DNA of 64,000 bases, from positions 310,001-374,000 of the forward strand of contig NZ_JAGSYG010000004.1 in assembly GCF_025685655.1 (NCBI RefSeq), written 5' to 3'. Origin of the DNA: Acidicapsa ligni (lineage in GTDB: Bacteria > Acidobacteriota > Terriglobia > Terriglobales > Acidobacteriaceae). The stretch's first letter is position 1; every line of letters begins with the position of its first letter. Shown here one piece after another: positions 17,624 to 37,473 of this stretch. A model generated the notes under the pieces. That model worked only from the letters and a program-made list of their open reading frames with translations, was not told the DNA's origin and made no database searches. A program made the translations under genes and the position numbers.

Positions 17624-20335
17624 TTAGAGGGATGGGCCTGCTGCAACCATTTGCTCGACTGAGAGAGATGAAGATTTGGTAACGACATGGCTTAGATTCG
17701 ACGCAAGCGAAGCAGCGGAGTCCGTATACAGTTGGGCATCGTATGCGGCGCGAGAAATAGAAACATATGCAAACCTGTCGTTGACGAGGTTTGGATGAAC
17801 CTTGCTGTCGATGTTCACCAATACCCGGTCTGCGGTAAGTCCCTGGGAACTGTGGCTGGTGACAGCGTAGCCGTGGTCGAAGTGCCGCATTTGGTTGGCG
17901 TCGAAACTGACGGATTTACCGTTGTCCATCTTCACGGAGAGATGGCCGTCTTTGTCGATGCGCTGCACCGTTCCGAGGTCGCGGTTGGCAACACCTAACT
18001 CTTTGGACGGGGCAGTGAAACTTAGACGGTCGCCCACGGCAAACTCCCGTTCCAGCTCACGGTAGACGGTCACGCCGTATAACCTCGCGGGATTGTAGGT
18101 GACAGTTTTTCCGTCCTCTTTTTGAACGGTTAGCAGGTTGTGTTTGGGTTGGGTAGCAATGACCTTCGTATAGCTTTGCTTTTCAATGCCGATGTCCTGA
18201 CTGCCGCGCGGGTAGTGGAGTACGTCATTCACGGCATAGCGAGCGGCCCAGGTCCTGTCGGCGCCGGTCATGTCGGAACGGGGAGCAAGGACACGCATTG
18301 CGTGATCCTCCGAAGCGACCGTGCCGTGAGCTTGCAATTCGGAACGCACGGCCTGATTGATCTGACGGCGCGAGGCGTTGTCGGGCGAGACGACGATGGT
18401 GTTATCCGGGTTGGCAGCGTAGCTCCGCGCAATCGCCGCGATACGCTGCTGTGCATCGGCAATCTCCGTAACGCGCCCCTGTTGTTCCAACAGGGCGATG
18501 CCCTCGGCGACTTCGCCACGCGACAGATGCTCGACCGCTTTAAGCAGTTCCGGGGCATCTCGTTGACGCACGATCTGGTCAAGCTGGGTGGTCTTCATCC
18601 CGGCATTGACCAACTGCTCGAAAGGTTTGCCCGCTTCGACGCCCTGATGCTGGCGGGTGTCCCCGATGAGCAACACGCGGTCGTTGGATTCGAGTTTGGC
18701 GAGGAAGTCACGCACCTGTTTCGTACTGGCGAGACTGGATTCATCGACCAAGTAAAGGTGACCGTCGGAGCTTGGCTGGCGGGTACGGGCAAGGAAACCC
18801 TGTAGGGTGTCGGCAGAGATGCCAGCGTCGCGGAGCTGGTTGGCGGCGCGGGATGTCGGGGCGAAACCTTCGACGACATAGCCGCGTTTTTCGGCTGCTT
18901 CACGAACCGATTTCAACAGGGTCGTCTTTCCGACACCAGCCCGTCCCTCCAGCCCTTGCACGACATCGCGTGAGGTCAGAATATCCTCGGCGGCGGCCCG
19001 CTGTCCGACGTTCAAATGCTGCTGCTTTTGGGTATGGGCGACGGCAGCTTGTATGGACATGATCTGCTCGGCGCGACCCTGCCCCTGCTGCATCTTGCGT
19101 AGGATTTCTCTCTCGGCGCGGATCGTCTCTGCGGTCGTGAAGCTCCGGCCGGAGTCGTGCTTTTGTCCTGGCACAAGCTGGAACTCCCCTGCGGCAATGC
19201 GGGCCTCAAACCCGGCGCGAACTTCCGAGTACGTTGTTTCACTCATGCCGCGCCGCAACGCATCGCGGTAGAGGTCGCGTTCGTCGGTGACGGCCTCGCG
19301 TTCAAAGCTGCGATCGCGGGCATAGGTGACAGCCTGCCGTGCAACCTGTTGCGAACTCTCCCGGTCATGTTCGGGCGCGTATTCCTGGCCACGCCTCCGC
19401 GCTTCCGTGACAACTCCGTCGGCCTGGTTGCCGAACTCGGCGGCGATCTGCCGATGGGCGGCCAGTACGTCGGCGGGCGAGTGAATTTCCTTGCGGTCAC
19501 GGGTGGAGTGCGCGGCGATCTGCGCGGCCTCCGGCCCCTGATAGCCGGTCTTTTCCAGATGCTCGCGTATCTGCTGGCTGCGCGGGCTGGAAGCGTCTAG
19601 GTACTCCTGCGAGTAGCCTTTGATCTCTGGTGCGCCACTGCGCCCCGGTTCAATTTCATAACCGAGGCCACGCAGCCGGTAGGTCAATTCCGATTGATAC
19701 ACGGCGGTCGCAAACTGCTGGCTGTCGAATAATCCCTGGGGCTGAAGGGCGCGGGTGCTGCCGTCGCTGCGCTCGGTCACATTAAAGATGACGGCATGGG
19801 TATGGAGCTGCGGCGCGGCGTAGCCATCCACCGGACGGGCGGTATCATGTTCAAATTTGGCGGCGACAAATTCACCAGTCGTCTCGGCCGGACGATTGCC
19901 GCTGATGCGCGCCTGGGTGTATCGCTCCAGTTCACTCAGGGCGACGTTGACGGCTTGGCCGTGCGCTTCGCGGACACGGTGATCTCCGCCTACCAGTGCG
20001 GTGAGCGATACGGATTTGGGCGCTGAGAAAGTAGCGTCCCACCCGGCGCGATGCTCCACGGGGGCGACAGATTTCCCATCCGCCCCGGTGTATTCGTGAA
20101 CCGGGCGATGGATGACGAGCTGTTCGGCGGTGAGGGGATGCTGGCCGTTCGCCAGCAACGCGAAGTGTTCTTCGTGAACGCCTCCGGCGAGACCGAACCT
20201 TTCCGCCAGTCTGCCATGCCACTCGCCCTGTGTTCGGTCGTTATCCTTCCAATAGTTCTGTTCCGGCGACGTGAACTCTTTGGTGTGATACGTCTGCGCC
20301 TGCGATGCCGATAGTGGTTTGGATATGGTTAGCAT
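17624..20335 (-). CDS. MobF-family conjugative relaxase-helicase (TrwC/TraI-like)
   Basis: 903 residues. The N-terminal relaxase domain has Tyr16 and Tyr28 at positions matching the catalytic tyrosines of TrwC, and the metal-binding HTH motif LHTHAVIF near 173. The C-terminal part is a superfamily 1 helicase: Walker A EGRAGVGKTTLL near 461, LYLVDESSLAS as Walker B, and GYAVTSHSSQGLTADRVLV near the end. It nicks one strand at oriT, stays bound to it, and unwinds DNA for transfer through the type IV channel. It lies 2 bases after the coupling protein gene. The order accessory protein, coupling protein, relaxase is that of plasmid R388 trwA-trwB-trwC. Confidence 0.93.
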   Translation of the reverse strand: MLTISKPLSASQAQTYHTKEFTSPEQNYWKDNDRTQGEWHGRLAERFGLAGGVHEEHFALLANGQHPLTAEQLVIHRPVHEYTGADGKSVAPVEHRAGWDATFSAPKSVSLTALVGGDHRVREAHGQAVNVALSELERYTQARISGNRPAETTGEFVAAKFEHDTARPVDGYAAPQLHTHAVIFNVTERSDGSTRALQPQGLFDSQQFATAVYQSELTYRLRGLGYEIEPGRSGAPEIKGYSQEYLDASSPRSQQIREHLEKTGYQGPEAAQIAAHSTRDRKEIHSPADVLAAHRQIAAEFGNQADGVVTEARRRGQEYAPEHDRESSQQVARQAVTYARDRSFEREAVTDERDLYRDALRRGMSETTYSEVRAGFEARIAAGEFQLVPGQKHDSGRSFTTAETIRAEREILRKMQQGQGRAEQIMSIQAAVAHTQKQQHLNVGQRAAAEDILTSRDVVQGLEGRAGVGKTTLLKSVREAAEKRGYVVEGFAPTSRAANQLRDAGISADTLQGFLARTRQPSSDGHLYLVDESSLASTKQVRDFLAKLESNDRVLLIGDTRQHQGVEAGKPFEQLVNAGMKTTQLDQIVRQRDAPELLKAVEHLSRGEVAEGIALLEQQGRVTEIADAQQRIAAIARSYAANPDNTIVVSPDNASRRQINQAVRSELQAHGTVASEDHAMRVLAPRSDMTGADRTWAARYAVNDVLHYPRGSQDIGIEKQSYTKVIATQPKHNLLTVQKEDGKTVTYNPARLYGVTVYRELEREFAVGDRLSFTAPSKELGVANRDLGTVQRIDKDGHLSVKMDNGKSVSFDANQMRHFDHGYAVTSHSSQGLTADRVLVNIDSKVHPNLVNDRFAYVSISRAAYDAQLYTDSAASLASNLSHVVTKSSSLSVEQMVAAGPSL

Positions 20336-20337: not shown

Positions 20338-22272
20338 TCAGTCGCCCAGAGAGAATCCCGTTTCTATCGGTTCATCTTCGCTGGCATCGTCAACGCTGGG
20401 AGTCGCCATGTCCGCAGACTTCGACGGCTTCTTCGTCAGGGTCTTCGGCTCGAACGTCAGCTCGTCGTCCTCCAACGGGCGCGGCACGAAAGCAGGCTGG
20501 GTGGCAGGGATATTCCGGTACTCGAAGGAGAAGCGGGCAACATGGTTTCCCAACTTGAGGAAGGCGTGTTTGTCAGGGAGGCCGGAGACTTCGGAATCGA
20601 GGACCAGCGGTTCGACCTGGCGCTCTACCGTGAAATTGTTGCCTGCCCGCAATCCGGTGGAGTGCGTCTCCCGCAGCCGCTCGATCTCGATTTTGCCGAT
20701 GGCGTTCGACACCCATTCGGCGGCCTTCGGCTCCGTGGTTCGCAGGAAAATCTTGGTCGTCGGCTGTGACAGCATAACCTCGGCCAGATGTCCGTAGATC
20801 ATCTCAAGCTGGGCCTTGCCCTGAAAGCCGAGGACCAGCGGATTCTTTGACTTCCGGTTCTCCGTGATAGCGGTATGGAGTTGCGGTAGCCGCTGCAAGC
20901 TCGCCAGCTCGTCCAGCACAAACCACACGGGATGCTGGCTCTGCTTTGGCTCATTCAGGAGACGCAATACGAGCAAGTCGATCCATAAGCTGTGTAGCGG
21001 TCGCAGCGCTTCGCGCTCGCTGGGCTTGGACGTAATAAAGATCCATCCTTTACGATGCTCTGCCCATTCGGTGGCGCTCCAATGGCTCTCGGCGGTCTCC
21101 TTCTTCGGCAGCATTCGCAGGCTGTCCGCAATCAATCCAAGCGAGGCGAGGACGCCGTTCCGTTGTTGCTGCGCGCCCTTCGCAATCATCATCGCCATCT
21201 CTGTGTTCTGCACGCGACGGTCGATCTCATCGGGGTTCGCCATCCACTCGACCAACTCCTGCGGACTCGGCCCGAACGTCAGCAGGTGGGCAAAAATCTT
21301 CTGCGGGGTTTCGGTGAAAAACTCGCCCTTCTTGTCCGTGGTCGGCTGATAGAGTGACGCGGCGATGGCTTTGGCCTCGGCACGGCGGCGCAACTCCTCG
21401 GATGGCCCCCAATAAGGGCAGCGAGCATCCAGAGGATTCAGGATGGTGTCTGTACTCGGGTCGTAGAATCGCTGTACGAACTCGCACGCGGGGTCGTACA
21501 CGATGGCAGAGTGGCCCCTTTCTCTGATCTGGACAAGGAGCTGCATGATGAGCCTCGTTTTGCCTGTGCCGGTATCGCCCATCAGCTCGATGTGCTGGCC
21601 TTCGGCCCGCTGGGGAATACGCATGAGGTCTTTCGATTCGGTGGTTTGGAAGCCGACGCCATCGCCTTTGATGGCCCGGTTAAATCCCTTCGGCGATACC
21701 AGCACCGGCCCTTTCAGCAGGCGGCCATACTTCATCTCCTTAAGCCGTTGCACGTCCTTCCGCACGGCGAATGGGAGCTGGAAAAGAAAGGCTGCCAACC
21801 CGGACCACAGTGGCGCTCGGAAGATTTCAAGAAAGCTATTACCTTCATAAACGAAGAGACGCAGATACGCATGAAGCGGTCGATTCTGGTAGCTGACGCT
21901 TGCTCCCCGGTACAGGAGAACAACCCCCGACGCACGGGCTGATTCCGAGAGCGCGAGAGGAATCGGTTTGCCGATCGGCTGCGGCGTGGAGCCTGGTTGC
22001 ACGTCGGCCTCGATGACAGGACGGGTATGATGTTGGCGGTCAGCTACGGTGACGAGCTGATAATCGCTTGTCTGACGCATCGTGCTGAGGACGCCTGTTT
22101 CGAGATAGCAGGAGAGGTAATAGCGTTGCAGCGGCGTCATGGCAAAGGCAAGGTGGAGATACATGCAGAGGCCGGCGACGACGAGTGAAACGAAGACGGC
22201 TCCAAAGCTGTAAACGGGATAGTGGGGAGGGCGGACGATGGTTTCTTTTCGTCCCCATTGTGTGTCGGTCAT
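20338..22272 (-). CDS. virD4: Type IV coupling protein (VirD4/TraD/TrwB-like ATPase)
   Basis: 644 residues. Two N-terminal membrane segments (about 20-45 and 165-180, AAFLFQLPFAV) anchor it in the inner membrane. Walker A is GDTGTGKTRL near residue 230, Walker B is VWFVLDELASLQRLPQL near 445. The C-terminal tail is acidic and rich in Thr, Pro and Ser. It recruits the relaxase-DNA complex to the secretion channel and powers DNA export. The start codon overlaps the stop of the accessory protein by 4 bases and the relaxase follows after 2, so the three are translationally linked. Confidence 0.93.
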   Translation of the reverse strand: MTDTQWGRKETIVRPPHYPVYSFGAVFVSLVVAGLCMYLHLAFAMTPLQRYYLSCYLETGVLSTMRQTSDYQLVTVADRQHHTRPVIEADVQPGSTPQPIGKPIPLALSESARASGVVLLYRGASVSYQNRPLHAYLRLFVYEGNSFLEIFRAPLWSGLAAFLFQLPFAVRKDVQRLKEMKYGRLLKGPVLVSPKGFNRAIKGDGVGFQTTESKDLMRIPQRAEGQHIELMGDTGTGKTRLIMQLLVQIRERGHSAIVYDPACEFVQRFYDPSTDTILNPLDARCPYWGPSEELRRRAEAKAIAASLYQPTTDKKGEFFTETPQKIFAHLLTFGPSPQELVEWMANPDEIDRRVQNTEMAMMIAKGAQQQRNGVLASLGLIADSLRMLPKKETAESHWSATEWAEHRKGWIFITSKPSEREALRPLHSLWIDLLVLRLLNEPKQSQHPVWFVLDELASLQRLPQLHTAITENRKSKNPLVLGFQGKAQLEMIYGHLAEVMLSQPTTKIFLRTTEPKAAEWVSNAIGKIEIERLRETHSTGLRAGNNFTVERQVEPLVLDSEVSGLPDKHAFLKLGNHVARFSFEYRNIPATQPAFVPRPLEDDELTFEPKTLTKKPSKSADMATPSVDDASEDEPIETGFSLGD

Positions 22273-22598
22273 GGCTGTTCCGTAGTCCCTTCTGCGTAGC
22301 TGGCGAGCATGTCCGCCGCCGCTTTCCGCTTGTTAGTTTTCACGTACCGGAGCATTTCTTTGAACTGCTCCGGCGTCATCTTTTCGCCCCGCAACAGTGG
22401 CTCCAGCGTGTTGATTAGGAGCAGACGGAGTCCAGTGATCTCGCCGAAGAGTGGCGCTGTTCCCGTCCGGTTTTCTGATTCGCGCACCTCGCGTAAGACA
22501 ACCTCGCGCACCCACTCGCCAAAGCCCGCGTTGCGCGACTCGCAGAATCGTTCGACTTCAGCAAACTCCAGTTCTGTAAGTTTGGTGTTGAGCGTCAT
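22269..22598 (-). CDS. Relaxosome accessory protein, probable ribbon-helix-helix (TrwA/MobC-like)
   Basis: 109 residues from ATG 22598, which has GGGAG nine bases upstream; a longer frame to 22676 has a poor, Arg-rich leader. The N-terminus MTLNTKLTELEFAEVERFCE followed by GFGEWVREVVLREV is typical of small ribbon-helix-helix proteins in mobilisation loci. These bind oriT and help the relaxase nick, and often repress their own operon. Position immediately ahead of the coupling protein matches trwA of R388. The C-terminal helices (TPEQFKEMLRYVKTNKRKAA) may oligomerise. Confidence 0.7.
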   Translation of the reverse strand: MTLNTKLTELEFAEVERFCESRNAGFGEWVREVVLREVRESENRTGTAPLFGEITGLRLLLINTLEPLLRGEKMTPEQFKEMLRYVKTNKRKAAADMLASYAEGTTEQP

Positions 22599-22689
22599 GT
22601 TGCGTTTCTCCCGCCCTCTCACCTTGCGGTGCGGCTGCCGAGATTCAGTTGAAAGCAACGTCATAGCGATCACCATTTCTGTCTATCGG

Positions 22690-22770
22690 TCGGAAACTCT
22701 TGAGTTTCCGAAACCGTGCTATCTCGAATGAAGTCAGCGGGTAACTCCCGAGTTTCTTGGGAAACTCAGC
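22690..22770. other. Candidate oriT: paired inverted repeats upstream of the accessory protein
   Basis: CGGAAACTC / GAGTTTCCG (22691-22710, 2-base spacer) and GAGTTTC / GAAACTC (22750-22767, 4-base spacer) share the same arm sequence. They sit in the 250-base gap before the trwA-like gene, where MobF systems carry oriT. The nick site itself cannot be read from the sequence. Confidence 0.5.
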
Positions 22771-22851
22771 AGCTCCCTACGAGGGGTGGAGTGTCAATCT
22801 TCTTCCGGCGCAAAGCGCCGCTGTGGTCCTGCCACGGATTCCGATGGAGGA

Positions 22852-23178
22852 TCATGCCTTCGATCCCGCCACAACTGCCGGGGTTTGCACGGAGGACTGC
22901 ACCCCGATTGCAGGCTTCTTCGCAGGCGGTTCCGCTGCATCATTGGTCGCTGCTCTACGGACGCGCAAGGTGGGCGTGATGCGTTGCGCGTTCGGCGACT
23001 TCAGGAACTCCTGAAAGTCGCGGTCTTTGGAAAAGACATAAGCAAGCGCCTGCTCGACCACTTCATCGGCGGAAGCGTGGATGAAAGCGGCGTACTGATC
23101 GACCTGTGTAGCGGTCGTATCGGTCAGCCGAATCGAGGCGCTGAGGTGGCGGGTTTGGACGACTTCTAGTAGGGGCAT
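22852..23178 (-). CDS. Small conserved-looking protein of the conjugation region
   Basis: 108 residues from ATG 23178, preceded by AAAGGAG. The centre (SIRLTDTTATQVDQYAAFIH then ADEVVEQALAYVF) has the strand-helix-helix layout of ribbon-helix-helix or antitoxin-like DNA-binding proteins. The C-terminal 40 residues are Ala/Pro/Lys-rich and probably disordered. It lies 23 bases after the primase stop in the same operon and directly before the candidate oriT, so a second relaxosome component or operon regulator is plausible. Confidence 0.6.
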   Translation of the reverse strand: MPLLEVVQTRHLSASIRLTDTTATQVDQYAAFIHASADEVVEQALAYVFSKDRDFQEFLKSPNAQRITPTLRVRRAATNDAAEPPAKKPAIGVQSSVQTPAVVAGSKA

Positions 23179-23201
23179 TACGTTCTCCTTTGGGTGATGA
23201 A

Positions 23202-24149
23202 TCAGGCGGACATCTTGCGGACAATCATGCGTTGCGCGGTGGTGGCAATCTCCCGCGCACGAGCGGAACAAAGTGAAGCGGGAAGCTCAAAGCGACGACG
23301 GGATTCGAGCATCGTAATCACGTCGTCAATGCGGATGCCTTCGATGAGCCAGAGGCGGGCCGATGCAATATCGACTGTGCGCTGCGCGTAGTAAAGCGGG
23401 TTGGGCTTATCGGAGCGGCGTGATGCCAGCTCCCGCGTGAGCTTCACGGCATCTTTGCCGTGGGCAAGCTCATGGGAAACCCAAGCCCAATCGTTCTCCG
23501 AATTGCTGTGCTTTCCAGGCTGCTTCCGGGGCGGGATGGCAGGGTCGAAGAGCATGGCATCGACCGCCGCAGCATCAAGCCGGAAGTCGGCAGGAGTCCA
23601 GACGGAATCGCAGGGAAACTCGACCGTGACAAGATGCGCGGGAGAATACTTGCGATTGAGGAAACCGGGGATGCGAAGTACCCGGTTGCAGTCGGTGCAA
23701 GCGGGATCGCCACCAAAGGCGATGGCGAGCAGCTTGAGGGTCTGCTCCTGACGCGCAAAGTCGAAACCATCGACACGCCAAAGCACCTGATACTTGCCGG
23801 GTGACGTGCACAGGATCACGGTCGGCGTGGGCACTGCATCCGACGCCAGGAGCGCAGCGAGGCGGACATCTCCGTCCGTATCGATGTCTATATATAGATG
23901 GCGAACGGATGCGATGCTCTCTTTGGTGCGCTTGCGGCTGCCGTAGTGAAGCGGATTGGCAGCGACATAGACGTTTGCGCCACCGTGGTTTTCGTGGGCG
24001 AGCCAACGGAGATACGTCGGCGCAAGCGCCTGTTCCAGTCGAACGATCCGCTGGGCTGGACGTTCGGCGTTGTCCCTGCGGAGCAGGAGAGCAATGGTGT
24101 CGTCCATAGCGAAGGAACGGGTGAGGAAGTTAGCGGCGGTTTGGTTCAT
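23202..24149 (-). CDS. RepB-like DNA primase (archaeo-eukaryotic primase fold)
   Basis: 315 residues. The motif HLYIDIDTDGD near residue 87 gives the paired catalytic acids. PTPTVILCTSPGKYQVLW and CNRVLRIPGFLNRKY (near 167-181) are the signatures of RepB-family primases found on plasmids and ICEs. It would prime replacement-strand synthesis after conjugative entry or support element replication. GAGGTG ahead of ATG 24149 is the ribosome site. The SSB gene lies just upstream (71 bases), a functional pairing for handling single-stranded transfer DNA. Confidence 0.8.
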   Translation of the reverse strand: MNQTAANFLTRSFAMDDTIALLLRRDNAERPAQRIVRLEQALAPTYLRWLAHENHGGANVYVAANPLHYGSRKRTKESIASVRHLYIDIDTDGDVRLAALLASDAVPTPTVILCTSPGKYQVLWRVDGFDFARQEQTLKLLAIAFGGDPACTDCNRVLRIPGFLNRKYSPAHLVTVEFPCDSVWTPADFRLDAAAVDAMLFDPAIPPRKQPGKHSNSENDWAWVSHELAHGKDAVKLTRELASRRSDKPNPLYYAQRTVDIASARLWLIEGIRIDDVITMLESRRRFELPASLCSARAREIATTAQRMIVRKMSA

Positions 24150-24220
24150 CGTTGCACCTCAGAAAGAAAAGCGATGGAAGTCCGGCACTGGCAGGGCTTC
24201 CATCGCGGTTACGACAACCC

Positions 24221-24613
24221 CTAGAAGGGGATGTCGTCCGACGGCTCCGGCTCATTGTCGAGGTCTTCCGGGGCGGCCTTCTCCGCCCGGTCGAGTTTGA
24301 GGATGGAAGTGACCCGCACGCTGTCGGAGCGTACCGGCTTCTTGGCCTTCTTGGGCGTGTACTCGGTGTGGCGAATCTCACCCTCAACCTGGACGTGTGC
24401 GCCCTTGGTGAGCGTGGCCGCGAACTCACCGAACTTGCCGAAGACGATGCAGCGATGCCATTCGGTATGCGAGACGTACTCGCCGGACTCTTTGTTCTTG
24501 TAAGAGGACTTGGTAGCGAGGGAGAACGTGGTGAACTTCTGGTCGTTCTTGCCGGTGCGAACTTCTGCGTCGTTGCCGATGAAGCCCATGAGGATTGCTT
24601 TGTTCTGATACAT
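24221..24613 (-). CDS. ssb: Single-stranded DNA-binding protein
   Basis: 130 residues from ATG 24613 (GGAGA upstream; the frame extends to a GTG at 24655 but the OB fold starts at MYQNKAILMGFIGNDAEVR). The OB-fold contains FTTFSLATKSSYKN and HTEWHRCIVFGK. The tail is acidic and ends in DDIPF, the tip that binds partner proteins. This is an element-borne copy, expected to coat incoming transfer DNA and dampen host responses; the chromosomal ssb is not in the window. It is in the conjugation operon upstream of the primase. Confidence 0.93.
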   Translation of the reverse strand: MYQNKAILMGFIGNDAEVRTGKNDQKFTTFSLATKSSYKNKESGEYVSHTEWHRCIVFGKFGEFAATLTKGAHVQVEGEIRHTEYTPKKAKKPVRSDSVRVTSILKLDRAEKAAPEDLDNEPEPSDDIPF

Positions 24614-24651
24614 GATGTGTCTCCGTTTTTGAATTCCCGATCTTGCTCGGG

Positions 24652-25041
24652 TCACACCTGGCGAAGCCTAGCGAGTGGGGCCGACTCCCAAGTGCCAAGG
24701 GTGCATTTTCTGGAGCGGGGACCAAAGCGCATTCCAGCTTGGGGGAGGAGTCCAGAAAAAGCAGAACCCGCCGTGCCGCCGGGCGTCGGTTTGCCCCCGA
24801 AGCAGTGACCGAGTACAGAAGCGGGATTCGTAGTTGGAGACACACGGCTGAACAATGAACTCATCCGCTTCCCGCCGATGACGTATGCCTGCAATCCAGA
24901 TTCACTTTCCCCGTCCAGACCTCCGGCAAAGAGCCGCATATCGCAACCTGATTCGCGTGTCTTCTGTTCGGCGCGGCTACGCTCAAATGCACATCGTCTG
25001 CTTGAGGGCTTGTTCGTCACGTTGAGGCCAAGAATATCCAT
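24652..25041 (-). CDS. Possible small protein of unknown function
   Basis: 129 residues, rich in Gly, Arg, Ser and Pro, with no recognised domain. In favour: the start at 25041 has GGAG about nine bases upstream, lies 24 bases after the preceding gene and the stop lies 38 bases before ssb, all in the same direction, so it fits the operon. Against: composition is unusual for a globular protein, and open frames exist on the other strand. It may instead be a non-coding spacer. Confidence 0.35.
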   Translation of the reverse strand: MDILGLNVTNKPSSRRCAFERSRAEQKTRESGCDMRLFAGGLDGESESGLQAYVIGGKRMSSLFSRVSPTTNPASVLGHCFGGKPTPGGTAGSAFSGLLPQAGMRFGPRSRKCTLGTWESAPLARLRQV

Positions 25042-25364: not shown

Positions 25365-26339
25365 TCAAGCGACACCAGCCGAAGCACGATAGATGTCTTC
25401 GGTCTCGAAGGACTGTTCGGCGTGGTTGTATCCGGTGACGTGAATCAGTTCACGGACGCGGCGTTTGCCAGTGTGATCGCGTTCGCAATACAGCACGAAG
25501 TCGATGGCTTCTGCCGTCTCCGAACGCACGAAGGCGTGATTGAGATTGGGCCTGGCACTCAGGGCCAAATCGGAGAGGCGATTCAAGGCGTCCCACGCGC
25601 TCTTCGCGTGGATCGTCGAGAGCGTTCCGCCGTGGCCTGTGTTCATGGCTTGCAAGAGGTCGTAGCCGCACTCGTCGCGTATCTCACCCATGACGATGCG
25701 GTCGGGACGGTGACGCAGCGCTGCGGATACGAGTTGACTCATCGTGATGGCAACCTGGCCGGGGATCGCTTCGACCGCTTCCCAACGGATAGCGTTGGGA
25801 TGTGCGACCTTTAGCTCTGCTGGTTGCTCAATGACGATCAACCGTTCACGCAATGGAACGTGGTCGAGCAAGGCTTTCATCAAGGTGGTCTTACCGCTGC
25901 TTGTCCCGCCGCTGATGATGCCGTTCTTTCTCTCTCCAACCAGTTGCACTACGGTATCCCGAACCTCCTCCGGCAAGCTGCCCGATGCAATCAATTCCTC
26001 GGACGTATACCAGCGGTTGAACTTTCGGATGGTCATGGTGATGCCGTTGACCGATGCGGGCGGTCCCACGACGGCAACGCGCGAACCGTCGGGGAGCCGG
26101 GTGTTGAGAATCGGGTTCTGATCGGAGAGGTTCTGGCCGAGCTTCCGGGCGATCTGTTGGGTCGCCGCGAGGAGCGTGTCAGTCGTCAGTGCAGAGGCAA
26201 GAGGGATGTGTTCTACCATCCCATTGCGATCGGCAAACACCCCCGTCGTTCCATTAACCATCAGGTCGGAGATGGTGTTGTCGAGGATAAGCCTCTGCAT
26301 CTCTTCGGGGAAGAAACCGAGTACCAGATCCCAGCTCAT
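25365..26339 (-). CDS. virB11: VirB11/TrbB traffic ATPase
   Basis: 324 residues. N-terminal domain with TISDLMVNGTTGVFADRNG; C-terminal RecA-like domain with Walker A GGTSSGKTTLMKALL (near 145), Asp box LIVIEQPAEL, Walker B-like RPDRIVMGEIR, and the His box TGHGGTLSTIHA. It is a hexameric cytoplasmic ATPase that drives pilus assembly and substrate transfer at the base of the secretion channel. Start overlaps the virB8 stop by 4 bases. Confidence 0.93.
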   Translation of the reverse strand: MSWDLVLGFFPEEMQRLILDNTISDLMVNGTTGVFADRNGMVEHIPLASALTTDTLLAATQQIARKLGQNLSDQNPILNTRLPDGSRVAVVGPPASVNGITMTIRKFNRWYTSEELIASGSLPEEVRDTVVQLVGERKNGIISGGTSSGKTTLMKALLDHVPLRERLIVIEQPAELKVAHPNAIRWEAVEAIPGQVAITMSQLVSAALRHRPDRIVMGEIRDECGYDLLQAMNTGHGGTLSTIHAKSAWDALNRLSDLALSARPNLNHAFVRSETAEAIDFVLYCERDHTGKRRVRELIHVTGYNHAEQSFETEDIYRASAGVA

Positions 26340-27145
26340 CGGACGGCCTCTGCCGGGCTTCCGCTGGCCGGTGCTCCGGGCACTATTGGGGGCGCTGTCG
26401 TCTGTTGAGGGGCCGCAGGATCAATCGGCTCGACCGACAACCTGTTTTCGTGGAACTCAGTGATGGTGAGACCGAGCGGATTGATGGTCTCGAACTGTGG
26501 AAAGGTCTGCGCGGCGAGACTCACTTGCGCCGGGTTAATGTAGTAGGTCACAGAGAGTACCCAATGCTCTTTACGCGGCTGTCTGGAGTTACGCGGGGAA
26601 TATATCTTGGTGATGTTGACGAGCGCCGTGCCGCGTGCAATCGTCGCGCCTTTGAAGGTCTCCTGCGACATGGAGGTGATGGTGACTCCATCTACTTCAA
26701 CATCACTCTGCTCGATCTGATTGGCGAGCACTTGCGAGACCAGATGCGCCGCGTTGTCCTCGCCCATGTACTGATTGGCGAGCTGGGTGGACAGAAAGTA
26801 GTAGTTCATCGGGTACTTCTTCGCGATGGTCTCCCGGTTGATGGTGTAGCGATAGTTGGCCCAATCGGTGAGGTAGGTCCGCACCTCACCCTCTCGCGGG
26901 CTGTAGTTGAGGTCGCTGTACTGGATGGCTTGGGCGCGGCCAATGTCTTCAATGCGGATGTAGCGATTCTGAACAGGCCGGTCGGCGAGCGAAACGATCA
27001 CTACAAACGAAGCGAGAAGAAGCAGGCTTTCGGTCGTGATGACCATTCGGCTCAGTCTGCGTTCGGCATAGAAGCCGACGTATTTTTCATGGGCAATCTC
27101 ATCGGTGAGGAACACCTGCTTGGGCGTAAGGGTTTCGGACATCAC
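26336..27145 (-). CDS. virB8: VirB8/TrbF inner-membrane assembly protein
   Basis: 269 residues: short cytoplasmic N-terminus, one membrane segment at about 35-55 (LLLLASFVVIVSLAD), then a periplasmic domain containing AKKYPMNYYFLSTQLANQ and a beta sheet (WVLSVTYYINPAQ). The tail is Pro/Ala-rich. VirB8 nucleates the inner-membrane complex and contacts VirB10 and VirB4. Its order before virB11 and overlap with both neighbours (4 bases each) show tight translational coupling. Confidence 0.85.
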   Translation of the reverse strand: MMSETLTPKQVFLTDEIAHEKYVGFYAERRLSRMVITTESLLLLASFVVIVSLADRPVQNRYIRIEDIGRAQAIQYSDLNYSPREGEVRTYLTDWANYRYTINRETIAKKYPMNYYFLSTQLANQYMGEDNAAHLVSQVLANQIEQSDVEVDGVTITSMSQETFKGATIARGTALVNITKIYSPRNSRQPRKEHWVLSVTYYINPAQVSLAAQTFPQFETINPLGLTITEFHENRLSVEPIDPAAPQQTTAPPIVPGAPASGSPAEAVR

Positions 27146-27384
27146 AGCATCTCCTTGGGGCGATAGGGCTGGTGCGCGTGGTCACAGATGAAGTCCGGCG
27201 ACAGCGGTTGATGTGGCCGGGGATGGAGAATCCATCCGTGATGCTTTGGCAGCGTCCCGAGGATGCGGCAGAAGAGTATGAGCACCAGCACCAGGACGGC
27301 GAGAAATAGACAGGCGGCGAGCCACCGAAAGATGAACCGAAGGCGGCGAGGGACGCAGAGATAGGCGTAAAGGAGGGCGAGCAT
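27142..27384 (-). CDS. Small membrane protein of the secretion operon
   Basis: 80 residues with one strong hydrophobic segment at about 18-43 (FRWLAACLFLAVLVLVLILF) and a His/Pro-rich tail (HHGWILHPRPHQPLSPDF). It overlaps both virB6 (1 base) and virB8 (4 bases), so it is a genuine operon member. Not recognised; it may be a small channel component or an entry-exclusion-type protein. Confidence 0.65.
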   Translation of the reverse strand: MLALLYAYLCVPRRLRFIFRWLAACLFLAVLVLVLILFCRILGTLPKHHGWILHPRPHQPLSPDFICDHAHQPYRPKEML

Positions 27385-28310
27385 CAGGCAGCCGCCGCCA
27401 CTGCTGCCGCCCGCATGAGTAGTGCCTCGGCTACCTGCATGACTCTTCCAGCGGCACCAGAGCCGCCGCCAAACAAAGTCTGCGTGATGGTTGGAACCAT
27501 CGCCATGTTAAGGACGAAGGCGATGAATACGGCGATAACCCCGTAGAAGTTGGCAATCCACATGGGGAGCGAGTAATCGCCGTTGAAGGTTTGCTGGAGG
27601 AAGGTGATGAGGAATCCCGACCACACGAAGATGAACGCGGAAGCCACGGCGCGAATCATCGCAAAACTCAAGAGAACATCGACGAAGTTGTAGAACTTAC
27701 CGCGAAATGTCCGGCTCATCAGAAGCGGAACGAAGAGCGGGCCAAAGAGGGCCGACACCCCGTAGAAGATGAACGAAGAGCAGTTGACCAGAAACAGAAC
27801 CGCACCAGCCAAGCCAACGACGATGTAGACGAGGAGATAGGTTCCGATCTCCAGCGGGGCAAGGTAGCTGGGTTGCGGGGTGCCATTCAGGGCCGTACTC
27901 AGGGCATTTTGCAGTTGCGTGAGCGAATTTTGGTCGAGCGCGGCAACGATGACCTGCGCGAAGTAGGAGAACAGGTGATTGAACCCGAAGCTCGCGCCTG
28001 GGATCGGCGTCACCCAATAGTTGATGATGAGCAGGCAGATGATGAGCTGCATCAAAAACTCCACGAGGTCGCCGATGCGAACCGGCTGGGCGCTGAGGCT
28101 GATCGTCATGGTCGAGATGTTCCAGTGGGCGACCATGCGGACAAGTTTGATGAGGCTGACGAAGGCTAAGAGCGTCATGCCGATGGACGAGAGCGCATCG
28201 CCGTTCGCGGTCGTGAGATTGGTCAGATTGTTGGTGAACTGATAGAGCCAATCGACACCGGGACCGGCTTGCAGGAAAAAAGCAAGGGAGGCCATAGGAT
28301 GAAGAATCAT
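27384..28310 (-). CDS. virB6: VirB6/TrbL polytopic channel protein
   Basis: 308 residues with about six membrane segments (for example LVEFLMQLIICLLIINYWV, LLVYIVVGLAGAVLFLVN and WIANFYGVIAVFIAFVLN) and a long periplasmic loop. The central SALFGPLFVPLLMSRTFRGK resembles the conserved core of VirB6/TrbL proteins. It forms the inner-membrane pore region of the DNA channel. The Ala-rich C-terminus ends in the cytoplasm or periplasm. Confidence 0.85.
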   Translation of the reverse strand: MILHPMASLAFFLQAGPGVDWLYQFTNNLTNLTTANGDALSSIGMTLLAFVSLIKLVRMVAHWNISTMTISLSAQPVRIGDLVEFLMQLIICLLIINYWVTPIPGASFGFNHLFSYFAQVIVAALDQNSLTQLQNALSTALNGTPQPSYLAPLEIGTYLLVYIVVGLAGAVLFLVNCSSFIFYGVSALFGPLFVPLLMSRTFRGKFYNFVDVLLSFAMIRAVASAFIFVWSGFLITFLQQTFNGDYSLPMWIANFYGVIAVFIAFVLNMAMVPTITQTLFGGGSGAAGRVMQVAEALLMRAAAVAAAA

Positions 28311-28352
28311 TGTGTGGGTACTCCCTTGTGTGGAAGTGAGTTGATGCTGCGG

Positions 28353-28583
28353 TTACTGTTTGGGCGCAGTGGCCGATTTCTGGGCGCTGCGTTCGCGGAT
28401 TTTCTGGACGGCTGCTTTGTCGTCACGGTCGATCTGCGCCGCCTTCTCTCGTTCGTCCGCGAGCTTGTGTACGTCTACGGCGGTCTGGTGGCTGGTGCGA
28501 AGCTGATGGGCGATAAGGACGCCAAGAGCAGCTACGGCGGCCAGAATCCCGACCAGGAGCTTCGTCCTGAGTGCTTGTTGCAT
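28353..28583 (-). CDS. Small membrane-anchored protein of the secretion operon
   Basis: 76 residues: N-terminal membrane anchor (LLVGILAAVAALGVLIAH) then a charged helix (VHKLADEREKAAQIDRDDKA). It sits 12 bases after virB5 with GGAGG at 28587-28591 as ribosome site. Small proteins at this position can be VirB7-like or entry-exclusion proteins, but there is no lipobox cysteine, so a VirB7 lipoprotein is unlikely. Confidence 0.6.
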   Translation of the reverse strand: MQQALRTKLLVGILAAVAALGVLIAHQLRTSHQTAVDVHKLADEREKAAQIDRDDKAAVQKIRERSAQKSATAPKQ

Positions 28584-28595
28584 GGTGCCTCCTCG

Positions 28596-29465
28596 TTATG
28601 GAAGGTAGGTCTGCCAGGTGCCGGAGCTGTTTGCAGGCGCGGAGGAGAAGGTCGCCCGTTGCTGCTGCACCAAGGCGGCGTTGTTGATCTCATCCGCAGC
28701 GGCGGTGCGCTGGGCCATGTTCTGCACGGCGGCCTGAGCCGCCTGGCACGCATGGAGTGCGCCCTGCGCCTGCGTCTCGTTCAGATGGTGAGCGTTGCCG
28801 ATATTGACGAGGTTGAGCTGTTCGAGTTCGGTAGAGGTAAAGGAACTGGTATCAAACTGTGATTGGGTAAGCGACCCTTGGGGCTGTAGATTATTGTTTC
28901 GTTGCCAGTTGTAATCCCCAACAGAGTTAAGGCATTGACTCGATACGCCGTCCATCGCTTCCATGCGCGTGAGCGTTGCGAGAGCGTGGCTGGTTCCGAG
29001 TACCTGGCTGCTTAGAAATGAAGATGAGGTTGAGTTGAGTCCGAGGTTCATCAGCTTCCAGACCATGCTCCCGGTGCCGGGTGCCTGACCGTTCATCGCC
29101 GACTGCAACCCGGTTGTCTCGCCGTATTGATTGGCGAAGCTCGCCATCGTGAGCTGCGACTGGATGGTTTGCCAGATGGATTTGCTGCTGAAGTTTTTCA
29201 GGTTGTTGGAGAGCATGTTGTAGGTGGTGATGGCCTGCTGGTAGTCCTTGTCCGCAGTTGCGAGCAACTGAATCGTATTGGCGAGTTGCTGCTGCCATGT
29301 CACGCTGTTCTGGATGTTCTGCTCGATCTGTTGGAGGGCGTGGGCTGATTGGGTAGGGTCGAAGACTATGCCCGATCCGAACTGTGCCTGACTGGGCAAC
29401 GCGGTGAGGAAGAGGAGCGCAGAGACGAACGCTCCTATGCGAAGTTTGCTGAGACTTAGCTGCAT
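28596..29465 (-). CDS. virB5: VirB5/TrbJ-like pilus-associated protein
   Basis: 289 residues with a signal peptide cleaved after LPSQAQ (residues about 10-28). The mature part is helical and Gln/Asn-rich: HALQQIEQNIQNSVTWQQQL, then TIQLLATADKDYQQAITTYN. The C-terminal half holds HACQAAQAAVQNMAQRTA. This matches VirB5/TrbJ minor pilins, which sit at the pilus tip and help contact recipients. Sixteen-base spacing from virB10 and 12 to the small gene downstream place it in the operon. Confidence 0.8.
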   Translation of the reverse strand: MQLSLSKLRIGAFVSALLFLTALPSQAQFGSGIVFDPTQSAHALQQIEQNIQNSVTWQQQLANTIQLLATADKDYQQAITTYNMLSNNLKNFSSKSIWQTIQSQLTMASFANQYGETTGLQSAMNGQAPGTGSMVWKLMNLGLNSTSSSFLSSQVLGTSHALATLTRMEAMDGVSSQCLNSVGDYNWQRNNNLQPQGSLTQSQFDTSSFTSTELEQLNLVNIGNAHHLNETQAQGALHACQAAQAAVQNMAQRTAAADEINNAALVQQQRATFSSAPANSSGTWQTYLP

Positions 29466-29480
29466 GAGTAGCTCCTGAAA

Positions 29481-30734
29481 TTACATTGCGGGTTCGACGC
29501 GATGCTCTGCGTAGGAAGGAATGAGAACGTCACGGCCTATGTAGACCCGTGCGCGAGAGCCTTCCTTGAGCGTGATGATCGGAAGGCGGTTGAGAAAGTG
29601 GTTGAGAATCTGCTCCCCCTCTTCACTGGTCTGGGACGTGACACCGTTGCGAATCTGAGCCGAGGGATCAAGGATGTTGTTATTTCCGATCTGTGCGAGA
29701 CCTCCTAACCCGCCAATCGCGGCAGCGACGGCGAACGTCTGGAAATAGCGGTTGTCTACCTTCGTGGCAAGCCCTGTCGTACCTAATGGATCAAGGCCGG
29801 CGAACTTGTCGAGATCGACGGAGAATCCATCCGGGCATATTGCACGGTGGAAAGAGACAACCATCTTGCGAGCCTGACTGGAGTTGACGGCCTGCACGCT
29901 TCCAATTAGCCGCGTACCCTGTGGCAGCAAGAGTTGCTGGTGGTCGTGCGAGTAGTAGTCCGTCGTAAGCATGATGAGGATAGGACCGGCGAGGCCGCCG
30001 TCGATATGGTTGGTCACGACTCCCTCAAAGACACTGCCCTCGAAGATCCGGTACAGCTTGCCGTCGTAGCTGTCGAAGTCGTATTTGTCGATGGCAGCGT
30101 CTTTCGGCTCTGGCTTCTCCGGGGTATCCGTAGCAGGCTTGGCGGTATGGTGATCCTCGCCAGCGATCGGCGCGGACGCCGCACCGGGGTGCGCTGACGT
30201 TGATGCAGTTTCAACTTGTGAGAAGTCCACTGCGACGGTATCGCTGTTGATGGCGTCCTGGCGTTGCTTCTCCCGTGCTAGTTGGGCTTGTTTTGCCTCG
30301 GCCTGCCGTTCGGACATCTGCGACGTTGCCTGCGGTGCGTTTGGATTGCCGGGGCCATACAGGGCAGCTCTCTGCGCGGGCGTCATCGGGGGAGCACCCG
30401 ATGCTTCGGGGCCGGGTGTATCAGCTCCTTGGATCGCCGCAAGCAAGGCAGCCGTCGCCGCTTGTTGCCGCTGCACTTCCTGATCCTTCTTGGCGACTTG
30501 CTCCTGTTGCGTCTCGAACGAATTGACCTGTTGTGGATTGGCCGTAGCGGGTCTCGCCGTCAACTGGCTCTTGAGCGGTGCGGTCTTCTTGGTGGCCGTC
30601 ACGACACTTGAGATCACGAAGACCAGCAGAATGATGAAAAGCAGGATGAGGAGCGGGCGCGTCTTATTGATCGGCGCGGACGCCTCCGGTTGCTCAGGGA
30701 CGGTTGCAGGAGGATTCTGATTTGTTTCCGGCAT
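29481..30734 (-). CDS. virB10: VirB10/TrbI channel scaffold protein
   Basis: 417 residues: cytoplasmic N-terminus, one membrane segment (PLLILLFIILLVFVISSVV, about 28-47), a Pro/Ala/Gln-rich periplasmic linker, and a C-terminal beta-barrel domain with KLYRIFEGSVFEGVVTNHID, LLLPQGTRLIGSVQAVNSSQ and FAVAAAIGGLGG, the last being the outer-membrane antenna region. VirB10 spans both membranes and opens the channel when the ATPases act. Starts 2 bases after virB9. Confidence 0.92.
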   Translation of the reverse strand: MPETNQNPPATVPEQPEASAPINKTRPLLILLFIILLVFVISSVVTATKKTAPLKSQLTARPATANPQQVNSFETQQEQVAKKDQEVQRQQAATAALLAAIQGADTPGPEASGAPPMTPAQRAALYGPGNPNAPQATSQMSERQAEAKQAQLAREKQRQDAINSDTVAVDFSQVETASTSAHPGAASAPIAGEDHHTAKPATDTPEKPEPKDAAIDKYDFDSYDGKLYRIFEGSVFEGVVTNHIDGGLAGPILIMLTTDYYSHDHQQLLLPQGTRLIGSVQAVNSSQARKMVVSFHRAICPDGFSVDLDKFAGLDPLGTTGLATKVDNRYFQTFAVAAAIGGLGGLAQIGNNNILDPSAQIRNGVTSQTSEEGEQILNHFLNRLPIITLKEGSRARVYIGRDVLIPSYAEHRVEPAM

Positions 30735-30736
30735 GG

Positions 30737-31573
30737 TTAGTTCCTTTCCCCTGTGCGATGGAACTCAACCTTCTGCTTGCCGATAGCGAGATAGCCGTTC
30801 TCCAACTCCTTTGGCACGGTGTACAGTCCGTTGTTGTAGTCGAAGTTGATGAGAGAGGGCTTCTTGTCTTTCACCTCATACAGAGCCGGGGTCTCCTGAA
30901 ATTGCCCACGCAGATAGGTGAACTTGTCATCGCGCCAAATCTGCTGAATGCCAAGCGCCGCGCCCTTTTTCTGATCCCAGGTGTAGTCAAAGTGCAGTGT
31001 GCCGGGATAGCTGGCTTTGAAGGTCTCGGCTGCGGAGGCAACCGCCTTGTGGTCTGCCTCCGCAGCCTTCTTCGCGTCGTCGGCCTCTTTCTTAAGCTGC
31101 GCCTCCTTCGCCTCTGCCTCCGCTGCCGGGATAAACGTCGGCGCCTTTGCGATGTTGTCCGCGGCCTTGGCATCGCTCGACGAGATGTAAATCTTTGAGT
31201 CGAAATGCGGATCGCCCTTGTCGCTTGAAATCTCACGCAACTCGATCGTGTACTCGTTGCCGTGATCGGAGACGATGTGAACGTCGGTCGTCTCATCGGC
31301 GATCTTTGGTTTGATGGACACGTACCGGGAGGCCACATGGCCTGCGTCAAATATCCAACTGTTCGTATCGCCGCCGAATACGGTTACAACCTTCTCCCCT
31401 GTGGACAGCTCAAACAGCGTCGATTGGAGCAGGCCGACGCGGACCACAGGTGGAGGTGCAGAGTCGGTGATGACGAGGGATCGAGGTGCGCTGGGCTGGA
31501 GATGCGGTGTCTGAGCGAAGCCCGCCGTGCTGATGGCTGCGGCGGCTATGGGCAAGAACAGGCGTGGCTTCAT
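30737..31573 (-). CDS. virB9: VirB9/TrbG outer-membrane channel protein
   Basis: 278 residues with a signal peptide ending in ISTAGFAQ. The N-terminal domain has GEKVVTVFGGDTNSWIFDAG; the C-terminal domain has DDKFTYLRGQFQETPALYEV and NGYLAIGKQKVEFHR, typical of VirB9. Between them is an Ala/Lys/Glu-rich coiled-coil insertion (residues about 145-185). VirB9 with VirB10, and usually the lipoprotein VirB7, forms the outer-membrane core; no VirB7 gene was found nearby. Confidence 0.9.
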   Translation of the reverse strand: MKPRLFLPIAAAAISTAGFAQTPHLQPSAPRSLVITDSAPPPVVRVGLLQSTLFELSTGEKVVTVFGGDTNSWIFDAGHVASRYVSIKPKIADETTDVHIVSDHGNEYTIELREISSDKGDPHFDSKIYISSSDAKAADNIAKAPTFIPAAEAEAKEAQLKKEADDAKKAAEADHKAVASAAETFKASYPGTLHFDYTWDQKKGAALGIQQIWRDDKFTYLRGQFQETPALYEVKDKKPSLINFDYNNGLYTVPKELENGYLAIGKQKVEFHRTGERN

Positions 31574-31611
31574 GGATGATCCTCTTTCCGTGGTTTGAGA
31601 GTGGGGTGCTG

Positions 31612-33966
31612 CTATGCCGTCTCGCCCTGGGCGAAACGCTCGATGCCTTCATGGAGTCCATACATCTCGACCAGCCTGGAACGTCGAACCTTGTCCTTCG
31701 GCTTGGTCGAAAACTTGGCGTAACTGCGGGAGTCGAGGTTAAGAGTGACAACCTTCGTGATTCCATCGCGCCTTACATATAGCCCCTCGCGTGGCCGCAG
31801 ACTCTCGAAGAGGTCTAGCTGCTCGTCACTCAGCTTGAATAACTCGCCATAGAACTTTCGGTTGAACGTCGCATCGGGAAGAAATAGAAACGACGTGCAG
31901 GAGTTCACAATCGAGTCGGCGTTTTCACCGAGGTCGTTTGCGGACTGGCCGATCATGGTGACGCCGCCGAGGTTCTTCCGTACCGTCTTGATCGAAGCCA
32001 AGGCACCTTCGAGGAGCTGCTTATTCTTCATGTTCGAGAAAATCTCTTCGATCAACACATGCTTGGGGACGCCAAGGTTCTTCTTGTCGTAGACAATCTC
32101 GTCGATGCGGCGCAGAATCCAGACCATGAGAGGTTCAATTAGGTCGGCATACTGCTTGTTGTTCACTCCCTGAAAGTCGAAGCATTGGAGCCTCGACATG
32201 GTAAGGCTGTCCTCGGCGTTATCGAAGATGGCATGATAGACGCCCTGGTCCTTCCACTTCGCCATGTAGCGGTCGAGGTGTTTGGGAAGCGTAAGGTTCC
32301 CAAGCCGCCGCATGGCTTGCGGCAGGTTATAGATACCCCTTACGGATTTGAAAACCTCGTCATCGTCCTCGGGACCGATGGTCGCGCCTGAGTTCGTGAG
32401 GAGTAACTTGACGAACGAATGAAGAAAGGCGATGTTGGTCTCGGTCGGCTCAAGCGCGAATGGATTGATGCGCGGCCCATCTTTGCCAACGCGATCTATC
32501 CGGCCACCATACAACTCGACGACGCTCTCGTAGCTGCCCCCGATGTCGAAGATGAAGGTGAAGCCGCCGTACTTCTGCTCAAGGCTTAACATCTGGTTCG
32601 CGTGAACACTTTTGCCCGTGCCCGTAGGACCGATGATGAGCTGCACCCGCACACCATTCACATAGGCATCCTGAAAGTAAGGCGTCCGCGTCCGTGTCTC
32701 GAAGATATTCAGGTACTCCGCATCCAAGTCCTCGGAATGTATGTGCCCGATGTGCGGCGCGAACACAGAGGACAGCCGGGCGTGATGATCCTCACGCAGC
32801 CACAAGGGATAAACGTTGAACTGCCTGTTGCCGGGGAACATCGCATAGAACGCAGAGAGATTGCCATAGGTCTCCTCGATGATGGGAGCCCTCGCATCCA
32901 CAAACAGGCGATGGACGCTGGGTATAGCGGAACGCAGCTCCGCGGCGGTGCTGGCAGACAGCAGTAACCGCAAGGCATAGTCGCCCTGGGCCAGTTTGTC
33001 GAGCGATGAGACCACTTCCGTCAGGCTCTCTACGTTGCCCGCGACGGCTTTGGCGGTTGCTGTGGTTTCAAGTGGTGCCGTGTTCCTGCCGCTCATCAGG
33101 CGTTGGAAGGGAGATAGCTTGAAAAACTCCAGAAACTTCTCTTGATTTGTTACCTCTTTCCGGGTGGCGCTGTCGGGCCGGGGTCTCCAGACGGAACAGA
33201 GGACACTATTGCAATCAAGGTCCATCAGGTTCGTGAACAGGCATGGACGGGAAATCTCCGGCGTATTGATAAGAGGAAACATCTGCACATAGCGGCGTCC
33301 GATGCGGAGGTAGTCGCTATGCCACTCGACCGGGGCGGTGACGAGCTGCCGGTCAACCCCGGCATCGGAACGTAGATGGGCTTCCGACGCCCACTCCTCC
33401 AGATTGAACAAGTAGCTGAAAAATTGGAACGTCTGCCTTTTGTCGAGCAGCTTCAGGCCGATGGAATCGCTCATGTGCGCTTCGAGGATGGTCGCGGCTT
33501 TTTCCAACTCGAAGAGCTGGCGGTCGGTGGAGCCTTTATGTTCCTTCGGCTTTTGGCTGAATAGACGGCCAGCGTCAGGCTCGATGGTCAGACACCAATG
33601 CAGGTCGATTCGGCGAAATCGGGCTGTCTTTTCAAGAAACTCGATCCTATCTTTTGCGAAGGATGCAGTAACCGGGTCCGCATATTGCGCCTGCCGGGGT
33701 AGATCGAAACCAGCTAGTACGCGGGTGTATTGATAGAGGCACGAGTCCTGCGGTAGTCCGCGCAAGGCGGCCTCCACGCCGCGCACGCGCACATCAAGAT
33801 CCTCATCAGTACGGCTCTCAGGGTCGATGCCGTCCAGACTGAACAGGCACCCGTAGCCTCCACCCTTGAGCGCGAAGATATGAGGGCCAACGAAGTGCGA
33901 GAGGGGCATGATGCCGCTCGCGGCTCCTGCTTTGGTAAACCACGGTGCGTTATTTGCGAGGGTCAT
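31612..33966 (-). CDS. virB4: VirB4/TrbE secretion ATPase
   Basis: 784 residues. Walker A IIGPTGTGKSVHANQML lies near residue 442; downstream HVLIEEIFSNMKNKQLLEG corresponds to Walker B (Ile-Glu-Glu) and GVTMIGQSANDLG to the following motif. The N-terminal half is the CagE/TrbE/VirB domain. It powers pilus biogenesis and substrate transport at the inner membrane. The start overlaps the virB3 stop by 17 bases. The gap to virB9 is 38 bases. Confidence 0.95.
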   Translation of the reverse strand: MTLANNAPWFTKAGAASGIMPLSHFVGPHIFALKGGGYGCLFSLDGIDPESRTDEDLDVRVRGVEAALRGLPQDSCLYQYTRVLAGFDLPRQAQYADPVTASFAKDRIEFLEKTARFRRIDLHWCLTIEPDAGRLFSQKPKEHKGSTDRQLFELEKAATILEAHMSDSIGLKLLDKRQTFQFFSYLFNLEEWASEAHLRSDAGVDRQLVTAPVEWHSDYLRIGRRYVQMFPLINTPEISRPCLFTNLMDLDCNSVLCSVWRPRPDSATRKEVTNQEKFLEFFKLSPFQRLMSGRNTAPLETTATAKAVAGNVESLTEVVSSLDKLAQGDYALRLLLSASTAAELRSAIPSVHRLFVDARAPIIEETYGNLSAFYAMFPGNRQFNVYPLWLREDHHARLSSVFAPHIGHIHSEDLDAEYLNIFETRTRTPYFQDAYVNGVRVQLIIGPTGTGKSVHANQMLSLEQKYGGFTFIFDIGGSYESVVELYGGRIDRVGKDGPRINPFALEPTETNIAFLHSFVKLLLTNSGATIGPEDDDEVFKSVRGIYNLPQAMRRLGNLTLPKHLDRYMAKWKDQGVYHAIFDNAEDSLTMSRLQCFDFQGVNNKQYADLIEPLMVWILRRIDEIVYDKKNLGVPKHVLIEEIFSNMKNKQLLEGALASIKTVRKNLGGVTMIGQSANDLGENADSIVNSCTSFLFLPDATFNRKFYGELFKLSDEQLDLFESLRPREGLYVRRDGITKVVTLNLDSRSYAKFSTKPKDKVRRSRLVEMYGLHEGIERFAQGETA

Positions 33967-34210: not shown

Positions 34211-34221
34211 CGATGCACCTC

Positions 34222-37309: not shown

Positions 37310-37411
37310 CGGCCTGCACCTCCATAAGTCGACAATAGCAAACGGAGAATCGCAATTTGAAGCTTGGAACAAAGTGACACCAGAAGTGACACCAGCCGAT
37401 TTTGAGCATGA

Positions 37412-37438
37412 AAAAGCCTCTCGGACTGAGAGGCTTTT
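37412..37438. terminator. Bidirectional hairpin between integrase and tRNA-Leu
   Basis: AAAAGCCTCTC and GAGAGGCTTTT form an 11-bp stem around GGACT, with A and T runs on the two sides. Lying 35 bases past the 3' end of the tRNA on its own strand, it most likely terminates the tRNA transcript. Confidence 0.75.
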
Positions 37439-37473
37439 GTCTTTGTAAACTATTCATTTTGTGAAGCTTATCT

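Follow-up and report, generated by a model that had tools for sequence, protein, structure and literature searches.

The window analysed here is a 64-kb stretch of DNA (contig C4:310001-374000), and positions are window coordinates unless C4 or C7 is stated. Regarding its gene content, the relaxase operon, the predicted leading region, the type IV secretion system (T4SS) and the integrase gene are laid out as follows:

17624..20335, minus strand: MobF relaxase-helicase (PF08751, E 2.8e-87; MobF NF041492 above cut-off)
20338..22272, minus strand: TrwB/TraD-type coupling protein (PF10412, E 3.4e-84)
22269..22676, minus strand: gene of an RHH accessory protein of 135 aa, TrwA-like by position
22852..24655, minus strand: predicted leading-region genes (PF16793, PF00436), with a RepB-type primase (23202-24149), an SSB (24221-24655) and a 139-aa ORF
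25365..34564, minus strand: type IV secretion genes (VirB11, 8, 6, 10, 9, 4 and 3-like)
36275-37372, minus strand: integrase gene (the entry 36275..37531 includes the tRNA-Leu repeat)
37472-37531: putative attachment repeat overlapping tRNA-Leu, 60 bp identical to C4:290835-290894

A residue check and an alignment with TraI locate Tyr16, Tyr28 and His163/178/180 in the MobF protein, which thus has the two tyrosines of a TrwC-family HUH relaxase; its named relatives come from Granulicella, Edaphobacter and unclassified Acidobacteria (12 loci). As for the element as a whole, it looks like an integrative conjugative element, with an integrase, flanking direct repeats, a T4SS and a relaxase, and the identical 60-bp repeats at tRNA-Leu and at C4:290835-290894 would give it a size of about 56.7 kb. 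Two adjoining tyrosine-recombinase genes (PF00589) are present just downstream of the relaxase (window 15301-17528), besides the integrase at 36275-37372. When the 1.2 kb around the site was compared with a plasmid collection in a "distant" DNA search, nothing matched.

The RHH protein of the window had no significant Pfam match; within its family, 29 of the 34 members match the Pfam entry NikA-like (RHH) PF21983 at E <= 1 (best 1.9e-7), and 9/34 match PF01402 at the same threshold. The top profile match, PDB 2BA3, is weak (E 0.014), and the AF2 model of the window protein is poor (mean pLDDT 55.6, pTM 0.27); the predicted RHH domain is assigned by the family profiles, and not by the window protein alone or by the model.

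Upstream of this gene, the intergenic region and the start of the predicted leading side contain a series of short features:

22690..22711, no strand: gene-proximal inverted repeat (distal from the nic), predicted operator, TCGGAAACTC-TT-GAGTTTCCGA, with perfect 10-bp arms
22743..22767, no strand: nic-proximal predicted operator array, made of the next two repeats
22750-22767, no strand: second, nic-proximal inverted repeat, GAGTTTC-TTGG-GAAACTC, with 7-bp arms and polarity opposite to the first
22743-22754, no strand: third inverted repeat, AACTC-CC-GAGTT, overlapping the second
22775..22785, plus strand: predicted relaxase hairpin CCCT-ACG-AGGG, with a loop that is free among relatives (78 loci)
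22786..22795, plus strand: GTGGAGTGT^C, predicted single-strand (U-turn) region and nic, by the layout in PMC4176350 and a rule calibrated on R388 and F
22806..22820, no strand: a further inverted repeat on what would be the leading side, CGGCGC-TTT-GCGCCG when read on the minus strand; its pairs covary

The preliminary description of this DNA had flagged two inverted repeats with a common arm GAAACTC, and these are real: the window has 47 perfect inverted repeats (arm >=7, loop <=8), and the flagged ones are its sole non-overlapping pair at most 110 nt apart with a common 7-mer arm, a kind of pair that occurs in none of five mononucleotide-shuffled windows. Their place directly upstream of the RHH, TrwB-like and MobF genes is confirmed by the ORF positions and the Pfam matches, the repeat at 22690-22711 having its end 14 nt away from the first start codon listed for ORF 22269-22676 (minus strand); the eighth base pair claimed for the second repeat is not formed, and its arms are of 7 bp.

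For the comparison with related elements, 398 genomes of the family were searched and 194 had a relaxase-domain match; 80 loci were fetched, among the matches listed, picked for contig room and spread, and with the window they make 81. A core with the consensus CCT-NNN-AGGG-R-TGGAGTGTC (window plus strand) lies upstream of 78/81 related relaxases, between the RHH gene and the gene preceding it; the three others (L074, L124 and L129), which lack the core and whose fetched DNA has no match to RHH, were left out of all spacer analyses. Such a comparison had been proposed as a check on the flagged region, and it finds the nic core at 22775-22795 kept, while the flagged repeats differ between elements. 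An RHH homologue stands next to the core in 78/78 core loci, that of L143 being only a partial match. In L149 the RHH match is within an 822-aa open frame, a length that would allow for a fusion to the next gene.

Across the 78 loci, the information is 2 bits or close to it at each position of the arms and the U-region, except R with 1.1, a level that is partly by construction, the sites having been located via the core motif with at most 3-4 mismatches; two further traits are not produced by this way of finding sites, namely the low information of the 3-nt loop (0.02-0.35 bits) and the drop from 1.9 to 0.75 bits after 22795. This profile of a conserved arm and U-region, a free loop and a free 3' side agrees with the mutagenesis of R388 TrwC, for which passages of PMC4176350 describe nt 12-25 as essential, while both the loop and nt 27-32 are free. 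The same passages place GTGT at nt 22-25 in most MOBF plasmids, and the GTGT at 22791-22794 fits this layout; they also state that R388 TrwC requires a purine just 3' of the nic, which is not found here, as 77 of the 78 loci have C. The 4-bp hairpin at 22775-22785 is no more stable than its shuffled versions (-2.3 kcal/mol, z 0.08), and its base pairs show almost no variation across loci, so that covariation lends it no support.

A nic rule was drawn from R388 and F (a hairpin of 4-8 bp, a loop of 3-6, then NTNNNGT[GC]T), the window site being already known when it was written. It has one match in each 700-nt stretch around the known nic sites (R388 16173; F record 66157) and one in 9 kb around the mobF operon of B. 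glumae (GCAAC-gga-GTTGC-GTGGTGTGT), the MobF relaxase of which is 33% identical to that of the window. In the window it has four matches, one of them at 22794, and 20 shuffled windows have 0-9 (mean 4.4), so a match to the rule means little alone; what counts for the site is where it lies, 118 nt from the RHH start, together with the strand it is on and how well it is conserved. Like those of R388 and F, the hairpin is on the accessory-gene side, and the predicted T-strand points away from the accessory, coupling and relaxase genes. The nic is predicted at 22794^22795 on the plus strand, and the exact cut could be one base off. Of the earlier proposal that 22680-22790 is a candidate oriT, the intergenic region stands as very probably an oriT with the R388 order, and the interval itself falls short, the predicted nic lying 4 nt outside it; the oriT elsewhere that had been considered, for example in 24,614-25,065, finds no backing, the core motif being absent there and present once in the window. 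The TTGACA beside the nic was considered as a -35 promoter element, but this reading was given up, since the elements differ in its first two bases and a simple promoter scan had no hit. On the B. glumae plasmid plas1 (L220:6183-6213), a candidate nic is found upstream of an accessory gene, a coupling protein gene and mobF; B. glumae, F and the window together suggest GTGGNGTGT as a wider form of the MOBF nic.

Of the 398 family genomes, 128 have the exact core (111 together with a related relaxase and 17 without), whereas 83 have only the relaxase and 187 have neither; in a class-wide sample it is in 32/74 genomes of the family versus 2/225 others of the class, and none of the matches listed there was to the reversed control pattern. 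In the window's genome it occurs without mismatch at two places, the second beside another MobF operon on contig C7 (L115, G000:C7:114600-119300), which has the same nic core and AGCTCC-type repeats; two elements with operators of different type are co-resident in this genome. In the Granulicella tundricola plasmid pACIX903 the core (149604-149623) lies between two hypothetical genes, upstream of the coupling protein and mobF.

Twenty exact-core places were chosen for the absence of a listed nearby relaxase, and 12 of them (L189-L193, L198, L202, L204-L208) had no relaxase match in the fetched 9-19 kb by tblastn with the window protein (E <= 1e-4), a share that is no rate given how the places were chosen. 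An RHH match and an integrase are present at L204, and an RHH_1 protein and a primase at L206; Fic/DOC-domain genes (L204:10204-11274 and L206:7063-8472) are near these two cores. L189 is without the second hairpin and may be a chance match. These relaxase-free loci are possible mobilisable islands with the same nic.

As for the flagged repeats, the spacers of the related elements are likewise rich in inverted repeats, with a mean score of 14.1 against 1.5 in mononucleotide shuffles (78 loci); with 40 shuffles per locus, the observed score was reached by none in 55/78 loci and by at most 2/40 in 72/78, and by up to 12/40 in the weakest. The arms differ by element: GGAACC, GGCTAC, AGCTCC, GGTGCAC, GGTATAC, GAGCGC, GAATCC and AGATACC, with GGAAACTC in the window; in some loci just one of the two sites is above the inverted-repeat threshold. 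When the two blocks of one element are compared, at least 7/8 bases agree in 35/35 usable RHH clusters, a loose threshold with a permuted expectation of 18.4/35 and with 22/35 and 15/35 against flanking coding DNA; the mean number of shared bases is 7.83/8 versus 6.61 permuted, and none of 10,000 permutations reached it. Two separate sites that change together need a common reader.

The reader is pointed to by correlation, with half-sites compared across blocks, so as to keep positional homology out, and L143 (partial RHH match, short spacer) left out. Over 77 loci, half-site similarity follows RHH identity given TrwB (partial r 0.417, 0/2,000) and does not follow TrwB identity given RHH (-0.195), statistics that ignore the relatedness of the loci, as do those on spacing. 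RHH proteins read DNA via the beta-strand. Among 35 representatives, half-site similarity follows this strand (partial r 0.407, 0/2,000) and the helices (0.248, 0/2,000), and shows no relation to the C-terminal part (-0.13). Strand and half-site pair as TQSIATRF with GGAACC, NQTL[NTS]TK with AGCTCC, NVSSKL with GAATCC, NLSTKL with AGATACC and PVT.KL with GGTGCAC; the exceptions are L133 (NRSLNTKL), which has GGAACC, and TAGTKL, found with GAGCGC when TASTKL is found with GGCTAC. L085, L086 and L120 had no clear common 6-mer by the automatic rule. Operators of a TrwA/SmpO-like accessory protein are the best reading of the flagged repeats.

The spacing of the sites is stepwise: for the 28 values taken from clusters with both sites above threshold, the distance between centres is 45-48 bp in 7, 56.5-58 bp in 11 and 66-68.5 bp in 6, so that 24/28 fall in three classes of about 4.5, 5.5 and 6.5 helical turns, the other four being 52, 62, 71 and 89 bp. 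Circular R is 0.71 at 10.5 bp, with a phase of about half a turn, and the best period, scanned from 7 to 16, is 10.6-10.7; the simple Rayleigh value of about 1e-6 ignores relatedness and overstates the strength. The pooled histogram of inverted-pair distances was uninformative, and the period fit of direct pairs peaked at 9.5 bp and not at 10.5. One site is nearly fixed near the nic core in most clusters, its centre 18.5-19.5 or 28.5-30.5 bp away; these proximal centres cluster at a single position that is probably ancestral, and for this reason their phasing was not used. The distances between sites point to a complex in which the two must keep a rotational relation.

From the anatomy, conservation, co-variation with the RHH protein and spacing of these sites we infer a course of nicking, binding, bending, repression and transfer which, taken whole, is in our judgement very likely: 22690-22820 would be the oriT of an integrative conjugative element, with a predicted MobF nic and RHH operator sites. 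The MobF relaxase would recognise the hairpin at 22775-22785 and the adjoining GTGGAGTGT and nick the plus strand at 22794^22795; the departing strand would carry the primase/SSB side first and the RHH-TrwB-relaxase operon last. The RHH protein encoded next door would bind both flagged repeats, probably bending or wrapping the ~120 bp between nic and gene; it would help the relaxase to open the nic, and it probably represses the RHH-TrwB-relaxase operon.

Other readings of the same features have to be weighed against this oriT. The preliminary description took the GGAAACTC repeats for the hairpin of the relaxase, which would read one of them and cut next to it, within 22680-22770. Although the repeats are strong and the 116-nt stretch 22680-22795 folds well as a single strand (z -3.14), they vary among elements with similar relaxases, in which the other hairpin (22775-22785) is conserved, and both copies track the RHH protein, behaving as binding sites for it; moreover, the nic rule is without a match in 22680-22770, and we hold such a hairpin to be very improbable. 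The repeats could also be operators only, which would autoregulate the RHH-TrwB-relaxase operon and not be involved in DNA processing, a reading compatible with the oriT set out above. The 14 nt between the distal repeat and the RHH start would suit it, and the MobC of IncU, an accessory protein, reportedly autoregulates its own operon; a simple scan found no sigma-70-like promoter, however, and a mere operator would not need the nearly fixed place of one site near the nic core. As a full account, autoregulation is quite unlikely.

The third reading turns on the hairpin at 22806-22820, which starts 12 nt beyond the predicted nic, shows pairing in 95% of cells, the pairs being of several types (15-52% when slid by 1-3) and folds better than shuffles (z -2.99). 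With these traits it could be what the relaxase reads, with a cut of the minus strand in or before GACACTCCA and the relaxase operon entering first; but a variable stretch separates it from the conserved block, no N-T-NNN-GT[GC]T is found 9 nt after it, and transfer would run opposite to that of R388 and F, so that we think a minus-strand nic quite unlikely. For an oriT with the nic at 22794^22795, a role of this hairpin in transfer termination or as a single-strand signal can be guessed.

The site gives a base-level nic prediction for conjugative elements of the Acidobacteriaceae, a family for which our literature searches found no oriT study. The 36 RHH clusters (70% identity), with about a dozen half-site types, form a natural data set on how the DNA specificity of RHH proteins changes and on how a relaxosome distinguishes its own oriT from the oriT of another element in the cell. 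From the stepwise spacing one would expect the accessory protein to take up a defined three-dimensional arrangement at oriT. A broader idea, which we hold tentatively and lean slightly against, is that a nearly fixed MOBF nic is common to the elements of Acidobacteria and that their identity lies in the rapidly changing RHH operator pair, a natural and decodable address code read by the beta-strand at half-integer helical spacings and insulating co-resident elements; relaxase-free islands may copy this code for mobilisation.

In comparison with known systems, the locus is very probably a MOBF-type oriT, as most of the testable features were found; the purine after the nic is absent, and the stability of the nic hairpin does not stand out from that of shuffles. 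With R388 (IncW, MOBF; TrwA-TrwB-TrwC) it shares the gene order and the accessory-side hairpin with the nic 9 nt after it; in R388 the nic is 156 nt from the accessory gene, compared with 118 nt here, the U-region is GTATTGTCT instead of GTGGAGTGT, the nic is followed by a purine instead of C, and TrwA is likened to the window RHH protein by position, not by sequence. The F plasmid (TraI, MOBF) is alike in its U-region (GTGGGGTGT versus GTGGAGTGT), in a hairpin that abuts it and in orientation; it differs in its hairpin arms, of 7 bp rather than 4, and in its accessory genes, traM/traY, where the window has one RHH gene before the coupling protein. NikA (R64) is the nearest RHH family, a weak likeness for the window protein itself and one that covers just the N-terminal RHH part; NikA works with another relaxase family.

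Finally, the staphylococcal SmpO/pWBG749 family has a host of another phylum and a relaxase of a family different from MobF, and its likeness, the paired operators for an RHH accessory protein, is one of principle only. According to passages of PMC8136818, SmpO is an RHH protein that binds two subtype-specific oriT sites, sites and specificity changing together; the sites, 65-67 bp apart, decide which plasmids move, one residue change switches specificity, site orientation is not critical, and relaxase-free elements carry copies of oriT. Those passages describe one spacing and five subtypes, and the elements compared here, which have a MOBF relaxase, show three classes of spacing and 36 RHH clusters. 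The principle is thus known from SmpO, and the MOBF setting, the stepwise spacing and the breadth of natural variants look new.
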